Origin: a virus
Length of the DNA: 28,486 nt
IMG/VR virus record: IMGVR_UViG_3300029910_000080
Coordinates: 1 to 28,486 of that record
Reading direction: 5' to 3' (one strand)
Below, one piece after another: positions 32-25,703 of this stretch; within the stretch, counting starts at the first letter, position 1, and every line of letters starts with the position of its first letter. The position numbers were made by a program, and so were the translations under genes. Below the pieces are notes generated by a model, which had not been told where the DNA came from, did not search any database, and saw nothing but the letters and a program-made list of their open reading frames with translations.

Positions 32-123
32 GGAGTGCAGCGGGCAATGGTGCCTATCCGGTTTGAACCCGGAGCCTCGCTACTCAGTAGCGCGACAGAG
101 TTCGATTCTCTGGCTCTCCTCCA
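32..123 (+). tRNA. tRNA-Ser(TGA)
   Basis: The cloverleaf is complete with encoded CCA. The anticodon stem is TCCGG/CCGGA around loop TTTGAAC, which gives TGA. A long variable arm of about 22 nt contains a 6-bp stem (CGCTAC/GTAGCG), as expected for a class II serine tRNA. The acceptor stem has one T-T mismatch. Confidence 0.93.
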
Positions 124-129
124 GTTTAT

Positions 130-203
130 GCTCGACTCGTATAGAGGGATTACGCCGCACTCGTAATGCGGATACTCTGGTTCGATTCCAGAGTTGAGCC
201 CCA
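130..203 (+). tRNA. tRNA-Thr(CGT)
   Basis: Acceptor GCTCGAC pairs with GTTGAGC. The anticodon arm is CCGCA-CTCGTAA-TGCGG, giving CGT. The T arm is canonical and CCA is encoded. This is the first of three consecutive threonine tRNAs. Confidence 0.95.
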
Positions 204-211
204 GTTTCAAA

Positions 212-285
212 GCACTTCTAGTTAAACGGTAGAACACGGACCTGGTACGTCCGCGATGAAGGTTCAATTCCTTCGAGGTGCTCCA
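212..285 (+). tRNA. tRNA-Thr(GGT)
   Basis: Acceptor GCACTTC pairs with GAGGTGC. The anticodon loop CTGGTAC on a CGGAC/GTCCG stem gives GGT. The T arm is GAAGG/CCTTC and CCA is encoded. Confidence 0.95.
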
Positions 286-292
286 GATTTAA

Positions 293-366
293 GCCCAGAT
301 AGTTTAATGGCAAAACTTCCGGCCTGTACCCGGACGTTCTCAGTTCGAATCTGAGTCTTGGCTCCA
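293..366 (+). tRNA. tRNA-Thr(TGT), C33
   Basis: Acceptor GCCCAGA pairs with TCTTGGC. The anticodon stem TCCGG/CCGGA encloses loop CCTGTAC, giving TGT with A37. Position 33 is C where nearly all tRNAs have U. A shifted reading with a Tyr GTA anticodon needs an unpaired stem, and there is no long variable arm, so threonine is preferred. CCA is encoded. Confidence 0.88.
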
Positions 367-469
367 AGTTTCTCTTAACTTTAGGCACGAAGTTTGTGAA
401 CCGATGATAAGAAAGAGCGCGGTATGGGGCTTTCACCGCGAAAGTGTAACGACATGAAGTTCCCCAAAT
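367..469 (+). other. Spacer with a 6-bp hairpin
   Basis: This 103-base gap in the array has no recognisable tRNA or protein gene. It contains a hairpin CGCGGT/ACCGCG (418-440) with an 11-nt loop. No T-run follows, so it is not an obvious terminator. A degenerate tRNA or a small structured RNA is possible, but nothing supports a specific call. Confidence 0.4.
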
Positions 470-543
470 GCGGGCATGGTATATAGGATGTGCCTTAGCC
501 TTCCAAGCTAGAGAATCGGGTTCGAGTCCCGATACCCGCTCCA
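470..543 (+). tRNA. tRNA-Gly(TCC)
   Basis: The anticodon arm TTAGC-CTTCCAA-GCTAG gives TCC. The T arm is CGGG/CCCG around TTCGAGT. The acceptor pairs GCGGGCA with TACCCGC with one C-A mismatch. CCA is encoded. Confidence 0.93.
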
Positions 544-545
544 AT

Positions 546-619
546 GCGAAAGTAGTTTAGTGGAAGAACTGAACCTTGCCAAGGTTCGAGCACGGTTTCG
601 ATTACCGTCTTTCGCTCCA
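546..619 (+). tRNA. tRNA-Gly(GCC)
   Basis: Acceptor GCGAAAG pairs perfectly with CTTTCGC. The anticodon arm GAACC-TTGCCAA-GGTTC gives GCC. CCA is encoded. The HNH gene follows. Confidence 0.95.
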
Positions 620-731
620 ACTTTATCGGACCAGACTAACGAACTGATTCGTGACTTCACGTTTTTCGGTACCGCAAACCGAATGGCTGGCGTCTGTGCT
701 GATTGGACCATTCCCAAAAGGATGGTTCTAA

Positions 732-1061
732 ATGCAGTGTGCATACAAGAATTGCAATAACGAAGTTGTCGATTTTGGAAAGCGAGATAAAAAGTTTTGC
801 AGACGAAAATGCGCGACAAAACATCGCGTCATTGCTGCTCGACAGAGGATGAAATTTCGAGCGGTAGAATATCTGGGTGGGCAGTGCGCAATCTGCGGAT
901 ATCGCAAGTATATTGGCGCTTTGCAGTTTCATCACTTACGAGATAAAGAATTCGGAATTAGTGAATCAGGATGTACTAGGTCGTGGGAAAGAGTCAAAGC
1001 AGAGTTACAGAAATGTATTTTGCTTTGTTCTAACTGCCACGCTGAACAACATCACAATTAG
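732..1061 (+). CDS. HNH endonuclease inside the tRNA array
   Basis: This 109-residue protein is a small HNH nuclease, probably a free-standing homing endonuclease that nicks or cuts DNA near its own insertion site. The N-terminal half has an early cysteine pair (CAYKNC) and the pair FCRRKC. The C-terminal half has the HNH core: CAICGY, then QFHHL, then CILLCSNCHAEQHH, so metal-binding Cys pairs frame the His-His catalytic strand. The start is supported by AAAAGGA about 11 bases upstream. It sits between tRNA-Gly(GCC) and an unusual tRNA-Asn, and its TAG stop is also the first three bases of that tRNA. No promoter of the kind seen at the other cargo genes was found, so it is probably transcribed with the array. 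Confidence 0.85.
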   Translation: MQCAYKNCNNEVVDFGKRDKKFCRRKCATKHRVIAARQRMKFRAVEYLGGQCAICGYRKYIGALQFHHLRDKEFGISESGCTRSWERVKAELQKCILLCSNCHAEQHHN

Positions 1062-1147
1062 AGCGTGACCGGAAATGGTAACGGACTGCACTGTTAATGC
1101 AGCGTGCTCACGCACAACTGTAGGTTCGACTCCTACCGCTCTAGCCA
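1059..1147 (+). tRNA. tRNA with GTT (Asn) anticodon and long variable arm
   Basis: Acceptor TAGAGCG pairs with CGCTCTA, discriminator is G and CCA is encoded. The anticodon arm CTGCA-CTGTTAA-TGCAG gives GTT (Asn). The variable region is 17 nt and can form a GTGC/GCAC stem, so the total is 89 nt and class II-like. Normal Asn tRNAs are class I with a 4-5 nt variable loop. Because SerRS reads the long arm and G73 rather than the anticodon, the charged amino acid is uncertain. Its first three bases are the stop codon of the upstream HNH gene. Confidence 0.85.
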
Positions 1148-1154
1148 ATTTTAT

Positions 1155-1228
1155 TGTGGGATAGTGTAACGGTAACACGAGAGTCTCATAAACTCTAACT
1201 GTGGGTTCGATTCCCACTTCCGCAACCA
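1155..1228 (+). tRNA. tRNA with CAT anticodon (Met or Ile2)
   Basis: The anticodon arm AGAGT-CTCATAA-ACTCT gives CAT. Acceptor TGTGGGA pairs with TTCCGCA using two G-T wobbles. The T arm is GTGGG/CCCAC and CCA is encoded. Elongator Met, initiator Met and lysidine-modified Ile cannot be separated with confidence by eye. Confidence 0.9.
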
Positions 1229-1243
1229 GATTCGAGGAGAACG

Positions 1244-1612
1244 GTGCGACATTACATTGTGGTGGCAAGGAAAGTAATCTTGCCCGAAAAGATTCACGAA
1301 ATGTCTTGCGGACACATCATGGCGCAAATCGCGCATGTGTGCGGGCGAGTTCCCAACGCGAGATTTTCGAGCAACAGCATTATCGTGTTGCAGGTTGAAT
1401 TGAACGCGCAGTTGCAGGAAGTCAAACAGTACCTGGACGAACGCAAGATTAAGAATTGGATTTACTCGGACACCAGCAACCTGTGGGTTGGCGAACATCC
1501 AACCGCGCTGATTACCGAGGCGGTCGAAGAAAGACTTTTTGATTTTCTGGCGCGCTTCGAATGCGGGTGCGAGCCGAGAATTTATGCAACAAGTTCTGGA
1601 GTGGTCGCATAG
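1244..1612 (+). CDS. Divergent peptidyl-tRNA hydrolase, PTH2-like
   Basis: This 122-residue protein resembles the PTH2 family, which releases peptides from peptidyl-tRNA that has dropped off ribosomes and so recycles tRNA. Visible PTH2-like elements in order are strand YIVVARK (about 4-10), the GH-x2-AQIAHV helix (about 23-31, matching the family GK-x2-AQ-x2-HA), strand IIVLQVEL, a helix with LDERKI, then a YSDT (for family QDAGRT) and TALI ending. The usual GKGK lysines are not conserved, so activity is uncertain. The start is GTG with GAGGAG upstream. The gene lies inside the tRNA array and its last four codons plus stop overlap tRNA-Asp by 15 nt. The context supports a tRNA-linked role; the family call is from pattern memory. 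Confidence 0.68.
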   Translation: MRHYIVVARKVILPEKIHEMSCGHIMAQIAHVCGRVPNARFSSNSIIVLQVELNAQLQEVKQYLDERKIKNWIYSDTSNLWVGEHPTALITEAVEERLFDFLARFECGCEPRIYATSSGVVA

Positions 1613-1674
1613 CGGCCTATTGCGCTCCGTTGTCAGCGGAGACTTCGTGGGTTCGAATCCCATCCATTCCGCCA
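1598..1674 (+). tRNA. tRNA-Asp(GTC)
   Basis: The anticodon arm CTCCG-TTGTCAG-CGGAG gives GTC. Acceptor GGAGTGG pairs with CCATTCC with one wobble, discriminator is G and CCA is encoded. The 5' end overlaps the end of the PTH2-like gene. Confidence 0.94.
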
Positions 1675-1784
1675 TTTTCTACGGGTAGCGTAAGTCGGGA
1701 TTACGTCCGACAGGTTTTGTTCTGGTGGCCACTGGGCAAGACTACAGTGTGGTGAAATTCCGCCGCGTCCCACTCTCATTTTAT
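1675..1784 (+). other. Unassigned structured stretch in the tRNA array
   Basis: This 110-base stretch is as long as a tRNA plus spacers but does not fold into a convincing cloverleaf. It holds a 5-bp hairpin GTCGG/CCGAC (from about 1694) and a longer imperfect one, CCACT..AGTGTGG (about 1729-1752). The string GTGGTGAAATT at about 1749 resembles a tRNA-Leu D arm. A decayed or highly divergent tRNA is possible. No protein gene is apparent. Confidence 0.35.
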
Positions 1785-1861
1785 GTTGGAGTAACTCAAC
1801 GGACTAGAGTACTCGTCTTCTAAACGAGTCGTTGTGGGTTCGAATCCCACCTTCAACACCA
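1785..1861 (+). tRNA. tRNA-Arg(TCT)
   Basis: Acceptor GTTGGAG pairs with CTTCAAC. The anticodon arm CTCGT-CTTCTAA-ACGAG gives TCT. The T arm is GTGGG/CCCAC and CCA is encoded. Confidence 0.94.
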
Positions 1862-1865
1862 ATTT

Positions 1866-1940
1866 CGGGGAATCTTCTAGTGGTTAAGATACGCGCTTCG
1901 GAAGCGTGAAACGAAAGTTCGATTCCTTCTTCCCCGACCA
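1866..1940 (+). tRNA. tRNA-Pro(CGG)
   Basis: Acceptor CGGGGAA pairs with TTCCCCG. The anticodon stem CGCGC/GCGTG around loop TTCGGAA gives CGG. A one-base shift would give TCG (Arg) but loses one pair. The matching loop in the next tRNA, TTTGGAA, supports proline. CCA is encoded. Confidence 0.85.
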
Positions 1941-1950
1941 GTTTATGATT

Positions 1951-2024
1951 CGGAAATAGTTGTTACGGTAGCATCCATGCTTTGGAAGCATGAGGCGGTG
2001 GTTCAACTCCACCATTTCCGACCA
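1951..2024 (+). tRNA. tRNA-Pro(TGG)
   Basis: Acceptor CGGAAAT pairs perfectly with ATTTCCG. The anticodon arm CATGC-TTTGGAA-GCATG gives TGG. CCA is encoded. Confidence 0.94.
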
Positions 2025-2034
2025 AATTTTATAT

Positions 2035-2109
2035 GCGCTGCTAGTTCACTGGCAGAACGCTTGGCTTACATCCAAGATGTAGGTGGTTCGATTCCATCGC
2101 GGCGCACCA
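2035..2109 (+). tRNA. tRNA-Val(TAC)
   Basis: Acceptor GCGCTGC pairs with GCGGCGC. The anticodon arm CTTGG-CTTACAT-CCAAG gives TAC. CCA is encoded. Confidence 0.94.
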
Positions 2110-2117
2110 ATTTCAAA

Positions 2118-2191
2118 GGTGATAGTAGTGTAGTGAGAGCACGCTGGACTGTGAATCCGGCAGCGAGGGTTTGATTCCCCCTTTCACCCCA
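2118..2191 (+). tRNA. tRNA-His(GTG) with encoded G-1
   Basis: The anticodon arm CTGGA-CTGTGAA-TCCGG gives GTG. The acceptor makes sense only with an extra G-1 (2118) paired to C73 (2188), the hallmark of histidine tRNAs. One T-T mismatch lies inside the acceptor. CCA is encoded. Confidence 0.93.
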
Positions 2192-2196
2192 ATTTT

Positions 2197-2271
2197 CTTC
2201 TCTTCGCCAAGTGGGAAGGCAGGCGTCTGCAAAACGCCAATCCGCTGGTTCGATTCCAGCAGAGAAGTCCA
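2197..2271 (+). tRNA. tRNA-Cys(GCA)
   Basis: Acceptor CTTCTCT pairs perfectly with AGAGAAG, discriminator is T. The anticodon arm GGCGT-CTGCAAA-ACGCC gives GCA. CCA is encoded. Confidence 0.95.
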
Positions 2272-2279
2272 TTTTCTTT

Positions 2280-2355
2280 TGCCCGATGGTGTAACTGGCA
2301 ACACGCGGGACTTTGAATCCCGTCGATGAAGGTTCGAATCCTTCTTGGGCAACCA
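2280..2355 (+). tRNA. tRNA-Gln(TTG)
   Basis: Acceptor TGCCCGA pairs with TTGGGCA. The anticodon arm CGGGA-CTTTGAA-TCCCG gives TTG. CCA is encoded. Confidence 0.94.
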
Positions 2356-2362
2356 TTTCTGT

Positions 2363-2437
2363 TCGGAGTTCGTTTAATTGGAAGGACAGCGCCCTCTGAA
2401 GGCGCGAATCTACGTTCGAGTCGTAGACCCCGAACCA
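2363..2437 (+). tRNA. tRNA-Gln(CTG)
   Basis: The anticodon arm GCGCC-CTCTGAA-GGCGC gives CTG. The T arm is CTACG/CGTAG. The acceptor TCGGAGT/ACCCCGA has one A-C mismatch. CCA is encoded. Confidence 0.93.
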
Positions 2438-2448
2438 AGTTTATCTGT

Positions 2449-2532
2449 GCCCGACTGGTGGAACGGCAGACACAACGCGCTTAGAACGCGTCGTCGAAAG
2501 ACATGGGAGTTCAAATCTCTCGTTGGGTACCA
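2449..2532 (+). tRNA. tRNA-Leu(TAG)
   Basis: This class II tRNA has anticodon arm ACGCG-CTTAGAA-CGCGT, giving TAG, and a variable arm of about 13 nt. Its D arm TGGTGGAACGGCAGACAC is typical of leucine tRNAs. Discriminator is A and CCA is encoded. Confidence 0.94.
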
Positions 2533-2540
2533 ATTTTATT

Positions 2541-2626
2541 GCGCTGCTGATGGAATGGCAGACATGCCGGATTCAAAACCCGGTGCCGTAAAAAGCGTCC
2601 CGGTTCGAGTCCGGGGTGGCGCACCA
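2541..2626 (+). tRNA. tRNA-Leu(CAA)
   Basis: This class II tRNA has loop TTCAAAA, giving CAA, on a CCGG/CCGG stem with an A31-C39 mismatch. The variable arm is about 15 nt, the discriminator is A and CCA is encoded. Confidence 0.92.
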
Positions 2627-2632
2627 ATTTAT

Positions 2633-2725
2633 TGTCGGCAGCACCAGCGTGCAGCCTGGCCTTATAAACCAGGGAAAGCGCCTGATTAGCGCGACGGGAA
2701 GGTTCGACTCCTTCGCTGACAACCA
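2633..2725 (+). tRNA. Class II tRNA with TAT anticodon (nominal Ile)
   Basis: Acceptor TGTCGGC pairs with GCTGACA, discriminator is A, the T arm GAAGG/CCTTC is canonical and CCA is encoded. The anticodon loop read as CTTATAA gives TAT (AUA codons). The stem is CTGG/CCAG with a C31-A39 mismatch, so a 9-nt loop is an alternative. The variable region is about 23 nt with a GCGC/GCGC stem, unlike any standard Ile tRNA, which is class I. Leu or Ser charging is conceivable. Confidence 0.75.
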
Positions 2726-2730
2726 TATTT

Positions 2731-2806
2731 GCCGATGTCGTCTAGTGGCCCAGGACGCAACCCTTTCAAGGTTGTTACGCGGGTTCGAATCCCGCCAACG
2801 GTACCA
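2731..2806 (+). tRNA. tRNA-Glu(TTC)
   Basis: The anticodon arm CAACC-CTTTCAA-GGTTG gives TTC. The T arm is GCGGG/CCCGC. The acceptor GCCGATG/CAACGGT has one A-A mismatch. CCA is encoded. Confidence 0.93.
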
Positions 2807-2812
2807 ATTTAT

Positions 2813-2887
2813 GGACTGCTACGTCAATGGCAGACTACGCGCCTTTTAAGCGCTGGAATGTAGGTTCGACCCCTACGCGGTCCACCA
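2813..2887 (+). tRNA. tRNA-Lys(TTT)
   Basis: Acceptor GGACTGC pairs with GCGGTCC. The loop CTTTTAA on a GCGC/GCGC stem gives TTT. CCA is encoded. Confidence 0.93.
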
Positions 2888-2893
2888 AGTTTT

Positions 2894-2967
2894 GTGCTGC
2901 TAATTCAATGGCAGAATACTCGCCTCTTAAGCGAGGGATGATGGTTCGACCCCATCGCGGCACACCA
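2894..2967 (+). tRNA. tRNA-Lys(CTT)
   Basis: Acceptor GTGCTGC pairs with GCGGCAC. The anticodon arm CTCGC-CTCTTAA-GCGAG gives CTT. CCA is encoded. The body is very similar to the preceding Lys(TTT), which suggests local duplication. Confidence 0.94.
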
Positions 2968-2976
2968 AGTTTCTAC

Positions 2977-3051
2977 AGGCCGATAAGATAATGGCAATCG
3001 GTTCGTCTCCAAAACGATACAATGAGGGTTCGAATCCTTCTTGGCCTGCCA
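2977..3051 (+). tRNA. tRNA-Trp(CCA)
   Basis: Acceptor AGGCCGA pairs with TTGGCCT, discriminator is G. The anticodon loop CTCCAAA gives CCA. The 3' CCA is encoded. Confidence 0.93.
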
Positions 3052-3059
3052 ATTTTAAT

Positions 3060-3134
3060 GCCGTAGTAGCTCAGCGGTAGAGCGGTGGCCTGAAAAACCA
3101 CTCGTAGCAGGTTCGACTCCTGCCTTCGGCACCA
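3060..3134 (+). tRNA. tRNA-Phe(GAA)
   Basis: The loop CTGAAAA on a GTGG/CCAC stem (C31-A39 mismatch) gives GAA. The D arm AGCTCAGCGGTAGAGC is textbook. The T arm is GCAGG/CCTGC and CCA is encoded. Confidence 0.94.
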
Positions 3135-3173
3135 GTTCAAAATGTAACTCGCACAAAGACTGACAGGACACAA

Positions 3174-3311
3174 ATGTTTGCATCATTGATTCCGGCACTA
3201 GGATTCACATCGCTTTTGTATTTGATTCTGAAGCTGGGCTTGATTGGTTTTATCGTGTACCTGATTACGACTTACATTCCGATGAATGACATCATCAAGA
3301 AAGTTATCTAG
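3174..3311 (+). CDS. Small membrane protein (Thivi_2564-like), amber-interrupted
   Basis: This ORF encodes 45 residues with a long hydrophobic run (about residues 4-35) followed by TTYIPMNDIIKKVI and then TAG. AGGA precedes the ATG at good spacing. After the TAG the same frame continues for 18 codons, VIVAVAVILYCINFFNIS, to a TAA at 3366. That is a second membrane segment of the kind that follows an IPM..IKK motif in small two-helix membrane proteins, which I recall from the Thivi_2564-like family. Either the gene has been shortened by a nonsense change or the amber codon is sometimes read through. Function is unknown. It lies between tRNA-Phe and tRNA-Arg(ACG), near the end of the array. Confidence 0.55.
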   Translation: MFASLIPALGFTSLLYLILKLGLIGFIVYLITTYIPMNDIIKKVI

Positions 3312-3374
3312 GTCATCGTCGCGGTCGCAGTGATTCTCTACTGCATCAACTTTTTCAATATCTCATAAGTTTAC

Positions 3375-3450
3375 GTCCGATTAGTGAAACGGAACATCAC
3401 GGAGCGCTACGAACGCTCAGTTCTCGGTTCAAATCCGAGGTTGGACACCA
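3375..3450 (+). tRNA. tRNA-Arg(ACG)
   Basis: The anticodon arm GAGCG-CTACGAA-CGCTC gives ACG, which would need A34-to-inosine conversion to read CGC/CGA. Acceptor GTCCGAT pairs with GTTGGAC. The T arm is CTCGG/CCGAG and CCA is encoded. This is the last tRNA of the array. Confidence 0.94.
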
Positions 3451-14684: not shown

Positions 14685-15050
14685 ATGAACGCATCACATA
14701 GCGCGTATGTTGCTGGGCTGGTTGACGGGGAAGGTTGTATCTGCATTTCTAAAAACCATCCTGTTGACAAGCGCGGTAAAATACATAGAACGCACGTTCA
14801 ATACAATCTAGAGTTGACTATCACCAATACAAATCTGTCCATCATTCGGTGGCTTTCCAAGCATGCCGAAGGACGACGGGTTTCCAAAGGCAGAAAGCGT
14901 GCGCGGTGCAAAACTGCGTACAACTGGCGGACCACTTCTCGGGAACATCTAACTAGTGTTCTTGATAATATCACGCCCTTTCTTCAAGCAAAGCGGAAGC
15001 AGGCCATCATAGCGCAGAAGTTTATAGCTAGCTATGGGGCGGGCTTCTAG
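14685..15050 (+). CDS. LAGLIDADG homing endonuclease in the intron
   Basis: This 121-residue protein has a single LAGLIDADG motif near its N-terminus, VAGLVDGEGCICI (about 9-21), with acidic D14/E16 at the catalytic position. Single-motif members act as homodimers that cut an intronless capsid allele and promote intron copying. The following strands (YNLELTITNTNLSIIRWL) and basic stretch (RRVSKGRKRARCK) fit DNA binding. It has its own promoter and AGGAG site and lies wholly within the intron, downstream of P9. Confidence 0.88.
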   Translation: MNASHSAYVAGLVDGEGCICISKNHPVDKRGKIHRTHVQYNLELTITNTNLSIIRWLSKHAEGRRVSKGRKRARCKTAYNWRTTSREHLTSVLDNITPFLQAKRKQAIIAQKFIASYGAGF

Positions 15051-24066: not shown

Positions 24067-24885
24067 CTACTGTTGAACCACTGAGTCAAACTGAATTGCC
24101 TGGAACTGTACCAAATCCAGATTTCCGCTCACCGATTGAGAACAGGTCAGTACGACAGTCGAAGGCGTGGATGTTGTAACCACACCCTGAACCTGTACAA
24201 TAGTCTGAGCAGGAATCTGAGCCGCGCCGAGGATTGCCTGATTGTTACTAAACGGGCTTTGTCCAGACACGGCAAGATTGCACGCAACCGTCACGGCTTC
24301 CCCAGGATTCTGAGGAATCACACTGAAGTTCGTTGTCGTGCTCGCTGTGACGAAAAAATTTCCAGCAGGCAGAGACAAAGATGCAGTGTTTCCGTTGACC
24401 ACGGTAGTAGTGGTATAGATAACACTCGACCCTGAAGGGCCTTGCGGACCTGTGGGGCCGCTTGGACCTTGAACGCCAGTCGCGCCTGTGCTTCCGGCAG
24501 GACCAGTTGCTCCCGTGGCTCCTGGCGCACCTTGCAATCCAATCGGACCTTGAGGACCGACCGCACCGAAAGCGACCGCGAAGTCGTAGGTGTTTGAAGC
24601 AGAGTTGATAATTTTCAACAAGTAGTCGGACCCGTTGACCAATCCAGACGGCAGAGCGGAAACAATCTGCGTATCGGAAACGGACGACGGAGCCAGAACC
24701 ACATTGTTGAATTTCACAGTCGGGGCAGTAGAACCTGGTTCAAATCCCTTGCCCGTCACCGTGATGACGTTGGACGTGTAGTTGATTGTCTCGTTGTATA
24801 CCGTGGGTTGAACGGCTGTTTGGGCATGCACCGAGATTGCCGAAAGCAGCGCAATCACGGCCAATACAAACTTGAACATTTTCAT
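24067..24885 (-). CDS. Secreted IPT/TIG plus collagen-like protein
   Basis: This 272-residue protein has a clear signal peptide ([21 protein letters not shown], cut after about 21), an IPT/TIG-like Ig domain (about 28-107, [21 protein letters not shown]), a run of about 14 Gly-x-y collagen-type triplets (about 110-152) and a C-terminal beta domain. It would be exported by the host, unlike any other gene here. AAAGGAG lies before the ATG at 24885; a longer frame upstream has no such site. It is on the opposite strand, with its own promoter and terminator, which marks it as cargo. It may change the infected cell surface or be a host-derived gene; no function is known. Confidence 0.8.
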
Positions 24886-24913
24886 TTTTGTGGCTCTCCT
24901 TTGAGCCATGTAC

Positions 24914-24942
24914 AGATTACCAAAATTCAGGAAGTCTGTCAA
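24914..24942 (-). promoter_or_regulatory. Promoter of the collagen-like gene
   Basis: On the minus strand TTGACA (24942-24937) is followed after 17 bases by TAATCT (24919-24914), a perfect -35 with a weak -10. The start of transcription would fall about 20 bases before the ATG. Confidence 0.6.
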
Positions 24943-24956
24943 CAGGAAAAATCCCA

Positions 24957-25703
24957 ATGGCATCAAGCACCTCCATCACAATCCAGAACACGCTCGATTG
25001 GTTGACCGCGTTCATTCTTCAACGTCCGACCATCGGTATCGGCAACTCACCGGGCGGTCTTGAGCCAGCTCTGACAACAGCGAACATGGTTATGCAGATG
25101 ATTTTGCAGCCACCTTTCGTGTGGTCGTGGAATCGTACAGTGCTGACCACTGCTTTTACCACCTCTGCGGGCGTGTCAGACTACTCCGTTTCCTTGCCCA
25201 CTTACGGCTTTCTTGAAAACGCGACATTGGTGAATGCTAATGCGACAGGCCAAACCCCTCCGAACACCCCGCTAGAAATTTTTAGCATTCTGGCTAAGGA
25301 AGGCAAGCAGAACAAACCCAATAAGATTGCGGTCATCTTGGACGACGACAACGGCAATATCACGTTCCGTGTGTTTCCTGTGCCTGACGCCATTTACACT
25401 GTGGATTTGGATTTCCAGAGAGCCCCTGTGTTGGCGACGGCGCTGGGAGCAACCACCTGGGCTCCGATTCCCGACAGATTGGCGTTTTTGTACGAGCGCG
25501 CTATGATGGCGCAGTTGATGTTGATGTACAACTCGCAACTCTACATGCAAAATATCGAATTGTTTTTCCGTCAGCTAGTTTCCGCCGCCGAAGGTCTTAC
25601 TGAGACACAAAAAGCGATTTTCTTGGAAGACTCGCTACGTATCGCGCGCACTCGTGCCGCGTCTGCATTGGATGTCCAACAGGGTAAGGGGGCTCGCAGC
25701 TAA
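24957..25703 (+). CDS. Neck/tail structural protein A (248 aa)
   Basis: No named family is certain, but the pattern of an early helix pair, PPFVWSWNR, a beta segment ([17 protein letters not shown]) and a C-terminal helix ([23 protein letters not shown]) occurs in phage head-tail connector or tail-tube adaptor proteins. The ATG at 24957 follows AGGA; a longer frame is rejected. Its stop overlaps the next ATG. The next gene looks like a longer paralogue with matching segments in the same order. Confidence 0.65.

Follow-up and report, generated by a model that had tools for sequence, protein, structure and literature searches.

A small gene embedded in a phage tRNA array appears to encode a divergent relative of a family of short phage proteins that resemble the peptidyl-tRNA hydrolase PTH2 and whose genes tend to lie near stop-codon suppressor tRNAs. 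The gene lies in a viral DNA stretch of 28,486 nucleotides (IMG/VR record IMGVR_UViG_3300029910_000080, positions 1–28,486; hereafter the window). Overall, we consider it probable that its product is a divergent PTH2-like protein of this short family with a role at the ends of tRNAs. Two parts of this picture are new: the placement of the window protein with the short family, and the linkage of that family to suppressor tRNAs. The pairing of PTH2 genes with phage tRNA arrays is already published.

A PTH2-like gene overlaps a tRNA gene

The open reading frame occupies positions 1,244–1,612 of the plus strand and encodes 122 amino acids, with a GTG start and a TAG stop. It lies exactly where the first-pass annotation of this DNA had placed it, between tRNA-Met(CAU) (1,155–1,228, plus strand) and tRNA-Asp(GUC) (1,598–1,674, plus strand; 49.7 bits), within an array of 25 tRNAs recognized by ARAGORN (32–3,450, plus strand). 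That annotation overlooked an overlap: the last 15 nt of the frame are the first 15 nt of tRNA-Asp, and the TAG stop (1,610–1,612) coincides with tRNA positions 13–15.

A probable ribosome-binding site, GAGGAG (1,234–1,239, plus strand), precedes the GTG by 4 nt and recurs unchanged in sister contig L001. This frame alone conforms to the codon usage of the large phage genes (0.219 bits per codon, against 0.079 for the runner-up frame), and GC content by codon position (.53/.37/.61) is like that of the terminase (.56/.37/.62). The ribosome-binding site, the phage-like codon usage and the codon-position GC confirm that the frame is a real gene, beyond chance.

The gene is not the only one embedded in the array. 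An HNH endonuclease gene (732–1,061, plus strand) has a stop codon formed by the first 3 nt of tRNA-Asn. A TAG at positions 13–15 of the next tRNA ends array-embedded genes in the window (1,610–1,612), in L001 (3,823–3,825) and in the sister phage contig L017 (6,596–6,598); the genes whose stop is borrowed from the D-arm of the following tRNA are the PTH2-like gene and two of HNH type. Another HNH endonuclease gene of the window (phrog_5046; 14,685–15,047) is flanked by structural genes, and an ORF on the minus strand (24,067–24,966) carries collagen-like Gly-X-Y repeats.

A sharp junction lies at position 1,231. Downstream of it, the window is 99.95–99.99% identical to sister contigs, and upstream the similarity is at the level of tRNAs only, which reflects either replacement of the array or an assembly chimera. 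A non-tRNA stretch (ggcacgaagtttgtgaaccgatgat...) at about 380–465 of the window and about 4,490–4,575 of L001 is almost identical across two otherwise diverged arrays, and the window copy has no match in Rfam. At 2,634–2,720, a weak tRNA-like element of class II escaped ARAGORN (RF01852, 25 bits, below the cut-off; anticodon UAU, read by eye).

Close relatives of the gene were limited to two near-identical contigs in IMG/VR, with none in GTDB genomes, and matches to the motif M..GH..AQ..H in IMG/VR were confined to the same virus. The exact lineage thus comprises three near-identical contigs, within which conservation is not measurable. Sister phages with a 57% identical terminase (L006–L010 and L017) have tRNA arrays with no PTH2.

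The window protein is placed with a short phage family

The first-pass annotation had identified the product as PTH2-type. Pfam PF01981 matches it with an E value of 8.4e-4 and 20 bits, below the gathering cut-off of 23 bits, and Pfam gave no match to a Pth1 domain. A profile built from canonical phage and cellular PTH2s scored 9.5 bits, narrowly topping all 5,000 shuffles, but the halves of this profile used separately did not detect the protein, and hhalign against canonical PTH2 returned a probability of 10.7%. In alignments with canonical PTH2s, the C-terminal half of the window protein is misplaced. A four-block PTH2 score (strand 1, helix 1, strand 2 plus helix, strand 3) was matched by none of 5,000 shuffles.

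Scanning natural ORFs with the same four blocks uncovered a further group of small phage proteins encoded next to tRNA genes. This short PTH2-like family (98–118 amino acids) includes ORFs of the loci L107 and L096, RaK2 ORF216, ME3_195, Salmonella phage Arash gp84c and Myrna gp84. It corresponds to PHROG 3668 ('hydrolase') and PHROG 34073, with most members annotated as hypothetical; when Pfam PTH2 was run on three of them, two scored 22–24 bits and the third had no match. In XacN1 ORF364, Stenotrophomonas phage CM1 and pT24, the short domain is joined to additional sequence, and fused copies lie at L175 2,449–3,300, L176 2,449–3,300 and L182 2,959–3,903.

A profile of 14 short-family proteins, with the window protein left out, matches the window protein at 24.6 bits (E = 5.1e-6, residues 4–97), against 9.3 bits for the best of 5,000 shuffles. 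A broader profile of about 100 members gave 23.9 bits, and the protein aligns over its full length to 52 members. Because the short family scores 24.6 bits and the canonical profile 9.5, we place the window protein with the short family, as what appears to be a divergent relative and not a typical member. The PTH2-type identity proposed earlier therefore needs amending: it fits the fold described below, and canonical PTH2 is not the closest group.

The predicted fold is that of PTH2

An AlphaFold2 model computed from the window protein and 52 short-family rows, with canonical PTH2 left out, reached a pLDDT of 68 and a pTM of 0.63, with secondary structure in the order E-H-E-H-E-E-H. For this model, PTH2 or PTH2-like structures fill the first 14 places of the Foldseek ranking (best match E = 1.2e-3, probability 1.0), led by the PTH2 structures 3erj, 1xty, 1q7s, 2zv3 and 1wn2. 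VIA-align 2 superposed the model on 3erj with a Z score of 11.5 (2.3 Å r.m.s.d. over 106 residues) and gave Z scores of 10–11 to most other PTH2s. The first unrelated chain followed at 5.0, and rows below the PTH2 chains (Z of 5 or less) were ignored. A PTH2 fold, on which the earlier identification depended, is thus predicted for the window protein, with moderate model confidence and side-chain geometry that is not readable. A model from the window sequence alone (pLDDT 41) gave meaningless Foldseek matches and was set aside.

Active-site residues are substituted

In canonical PTH2s, eleven residues (R, D, G, K, Q, H, K, D, G, T and P) are conserved in 83–84 of 84 sequences. Compared with these 84, the window protein is missing both lysines, including that of the GK motif, as the first-pass annotation had noted, together with the RxD aspartate and the DAGxT threonine. 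Of the eleven, R, D, Q and H are preserved in the short family, which adds E-P-D and T and has no GK lysine. From this set the window protein retains H24 and T87, as well as L57, and has D76 where the family has E, a conservative change. In the MAFFT register, K10, I12, S21, T77 and S78 stand at the family R/D, Q and P/D positions; a one-residue shift would let R9 stand for the family R. The register of helix 1 is ambiguous, as either H24 or Q28/H31 (A27-Q28-I-A-H31) fits the PTH2 Q..H motif, and the canonical lysines are gone in both.

Short-family genes are linked to suppressor tRNAs

The first-pass annotation had suggested searching other phage tRNA arrays for the pair of PTH2 and tRNA genes, and the pair proved common in IMG/VR. 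Canonical PTH2 is present in 454 confirmed IMG/VR stretches. There were tRNAs within 5 kb at 55 of 80 loci, with a density over the 80 of 6.2 per 10 kb, compared with 0.02 at 59 unrelated viral loci; across 23 large records, density was 5.6 per 10 kb near PTH2 and 1.05 genome-wide. One study described PTH2-like genes in some 96% of the arrays of cluster C mycobacteriophages and put forward a rescue hypothesis (PMC5966550); PTH2 has also been reported in jumbo phages (PMC7824862).

The short family shows a more specific association. A tRNA lies within 5 kb at 97 of 108 IMG/VR loci (L184–L291), the nearest one always on the same strand, and at 61 of these 97 the nearest tRNA is a CUA or UCA suppressor. 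A suppressor tRNA occurs within 5 kb at 86 of the 108 short-family loci but at 2 of 64 canonical PTH2 loci on other contigs (odds ratio 121, Fisher P = 3e-25, a test that ignores kinship, and many of the phages are large). The linkage holds in 48 of 64 clusters at 70% (P = 2e-18) and in 9 of 15 at 50% (P = 1e-6), again with kinship ignored by the Fisher test. At eight loci, a CUA tRNA starts 0–13 nt downstream of the short PTH2-like gene. Among GenBank phages (L172, L174, L177, L178 and L180–L183), the gene has a CUA or UUA tRNA no more than about 4 kb away in Myrna, Arash, ME3, GAP32, Kaldavass, pT24 and two Lak phages. ARAGORN assigned a CUA anticodon to tRNAs annotated as Phe in Arash (L172 5,301) and as Ser in Myrna (L183 3,463).

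Two short PTH2-like genes, L192 5,001–5,291 and L235 5,001–5,294, each contain one in-frame TAG, as expected in recoded phages and pointing to TAG reassignment in these two. Our literature search, mostly of papers outside subscription, found none that connects PTH2 to phage suppressor tRNAs; in PMC5966550, a PTH2-like gene and 'pyrrolysine' and 'selenocysteine' tRNAs both occur in cluster C arrays, unlinked there.

The window copy does not share this association. None of the 25 recognized tRNAs of its array has a suppressor anticodon (CUA, UCA or UUA), nor does any in the L001 or L019 arrays, the window record itself being a fragment. With TAG ending 9 of the 30 genes of the window phage and no such tRNA in the array, nothing points to amber recoding. 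The link to suppressor tRNAs is therefore a feature of the short family and not of the window copy.

A proposed role at tRNA ends

Judging by its embedding and strand, the window protein would be made from the phage tRNA transcription unit, and it would most likely bind phage tRNAs at their acceptor end, in aminoacyl or peptidyl form. In the short family, the invariant R, D, Q, H, E-P-D and T may form an altered active site that has kept the ability to cleave an ester at the tRNA end. Given the genomic linkage, such cleavage would serve to recycle phage tRNAs or to proof-read them, chiefly the stop-codon suppressors, which would provoke read-through, stalling and peptidyl-tRNA drop-off.

For the window protein itself, a hydrolase of changed specificity and a tRNA-end binder with little or no hydrolysis appear about equally likely, because most family invariants are lost (H24, D76 and T87 being kept) and suppressor tRNAs are absent from its array. 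The most likely role would be tRNA-end binding with altered or lost hydrolysis, serving an ordinary array. The alteration of most short-family invariants counts against our overall explanation, as do the lack of a recognized suppressor tRNA alongside nine TAG-ended genes, the small number of contigs that carry this lineage and the ambiguous register of helix 1. More tentatively, the short family may be a dedicated suppressor-tRNA partner, hydrolysing or binding the tRNA end and so controlling or repairing what stop-codon recoding produces; the window branch would have left suppressors for an ordinary array and had its active site rebuilt or lost. We regard this scenario as plausible rather than probable.

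A rather unlikely alternative is a catalytically dead, tRNA-binding regulator that, for example, shields phage tRNAs from host nucleases or tunes their maturation. This reading fits the missing canonical lysines and the loss of most residues that are invariant in the short family, as well as the stop codon within tRNA-Asp: RNase P cleavage at 1,597/1,598 would remove that codon, so the overlap would couple synthesis of the protein to tRNA processing. However, the window protein keeps H24, an acid and T87, and the short family overall holds strict polar invariants, as an enzyme would. The overlap may also be mere tight packing, as HNH genes in sister arrays stop at tRNA positions 13–15 too.

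Less probable still is drift of an ordinary PTH2, its catalytic residues substituted but its reaction unchanged, namely hydrolysis of peptidyl-tRNA when ribosomes stall. The Pfam match, the fold and the many phage tRNA arrays with canonical PTH2 agree with it. Yet the lysines, RxD and DAGxT are absent despite their invariance in canonical PTH2s, the short-family profile outscores the canonical one, and another PTH2 accompanies the short family in about half of the searched records that carry it. A chance open frame with a spurious PTH2 match is already refuted by the coding evidence, the profile and fold matches and the four-block score, even though spurious ORFs abound in tRNA arrays and a longer antisense ORF (1,151–1,675) covers the same DNA.

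Comparison with known systems

Bacterial Pth1, whose fold is unrelated to that of PTH2, would share its substrate with the window protein if the latter is active. The eukaryotic PTH2-like protein PTRHD1 has no GK lysine and no DAGxT. The short-family profile matched an approximate PTRHD1 sequence at 44.8 bits; a direct link of the window protein to human PTRHD1, drawn from that approximate sequence, was not significant and was dropped.

Canonical PTH2 (PF01981; in phages PHROG 1866, for example Myrna gp36 and phiM12) resembles the window protein in its fold, the pattern M..G...AQ..H and its occurrence in phage tRNA arrays, but its two invariant lysines, RxD, DAGxT and GP residues are absent from the window protein. 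The short family shares with the window protein its length, a profile match over residues 4–97, the missing GK lysine, the invariant H, a TA motif and a position within or next to tRNA genes. By contrast, the window copy is without the family R/D, Q and EPD residues, and its array is without a suppressor tRNA. The window gene thus moves from an 'odd PTH2' to a placed but divergent short-family relative. Phages that reassign stop codons face read-through and stalled ribosomes, and their helper proteins are largely unknown; the small PTH2-fold protein adjoining suppressor tRNAs in the isolated phages Myrna, GAP32, ME3, Arash and pT24 and in Lak phage genomes is a directly testable candidate for such a helper.
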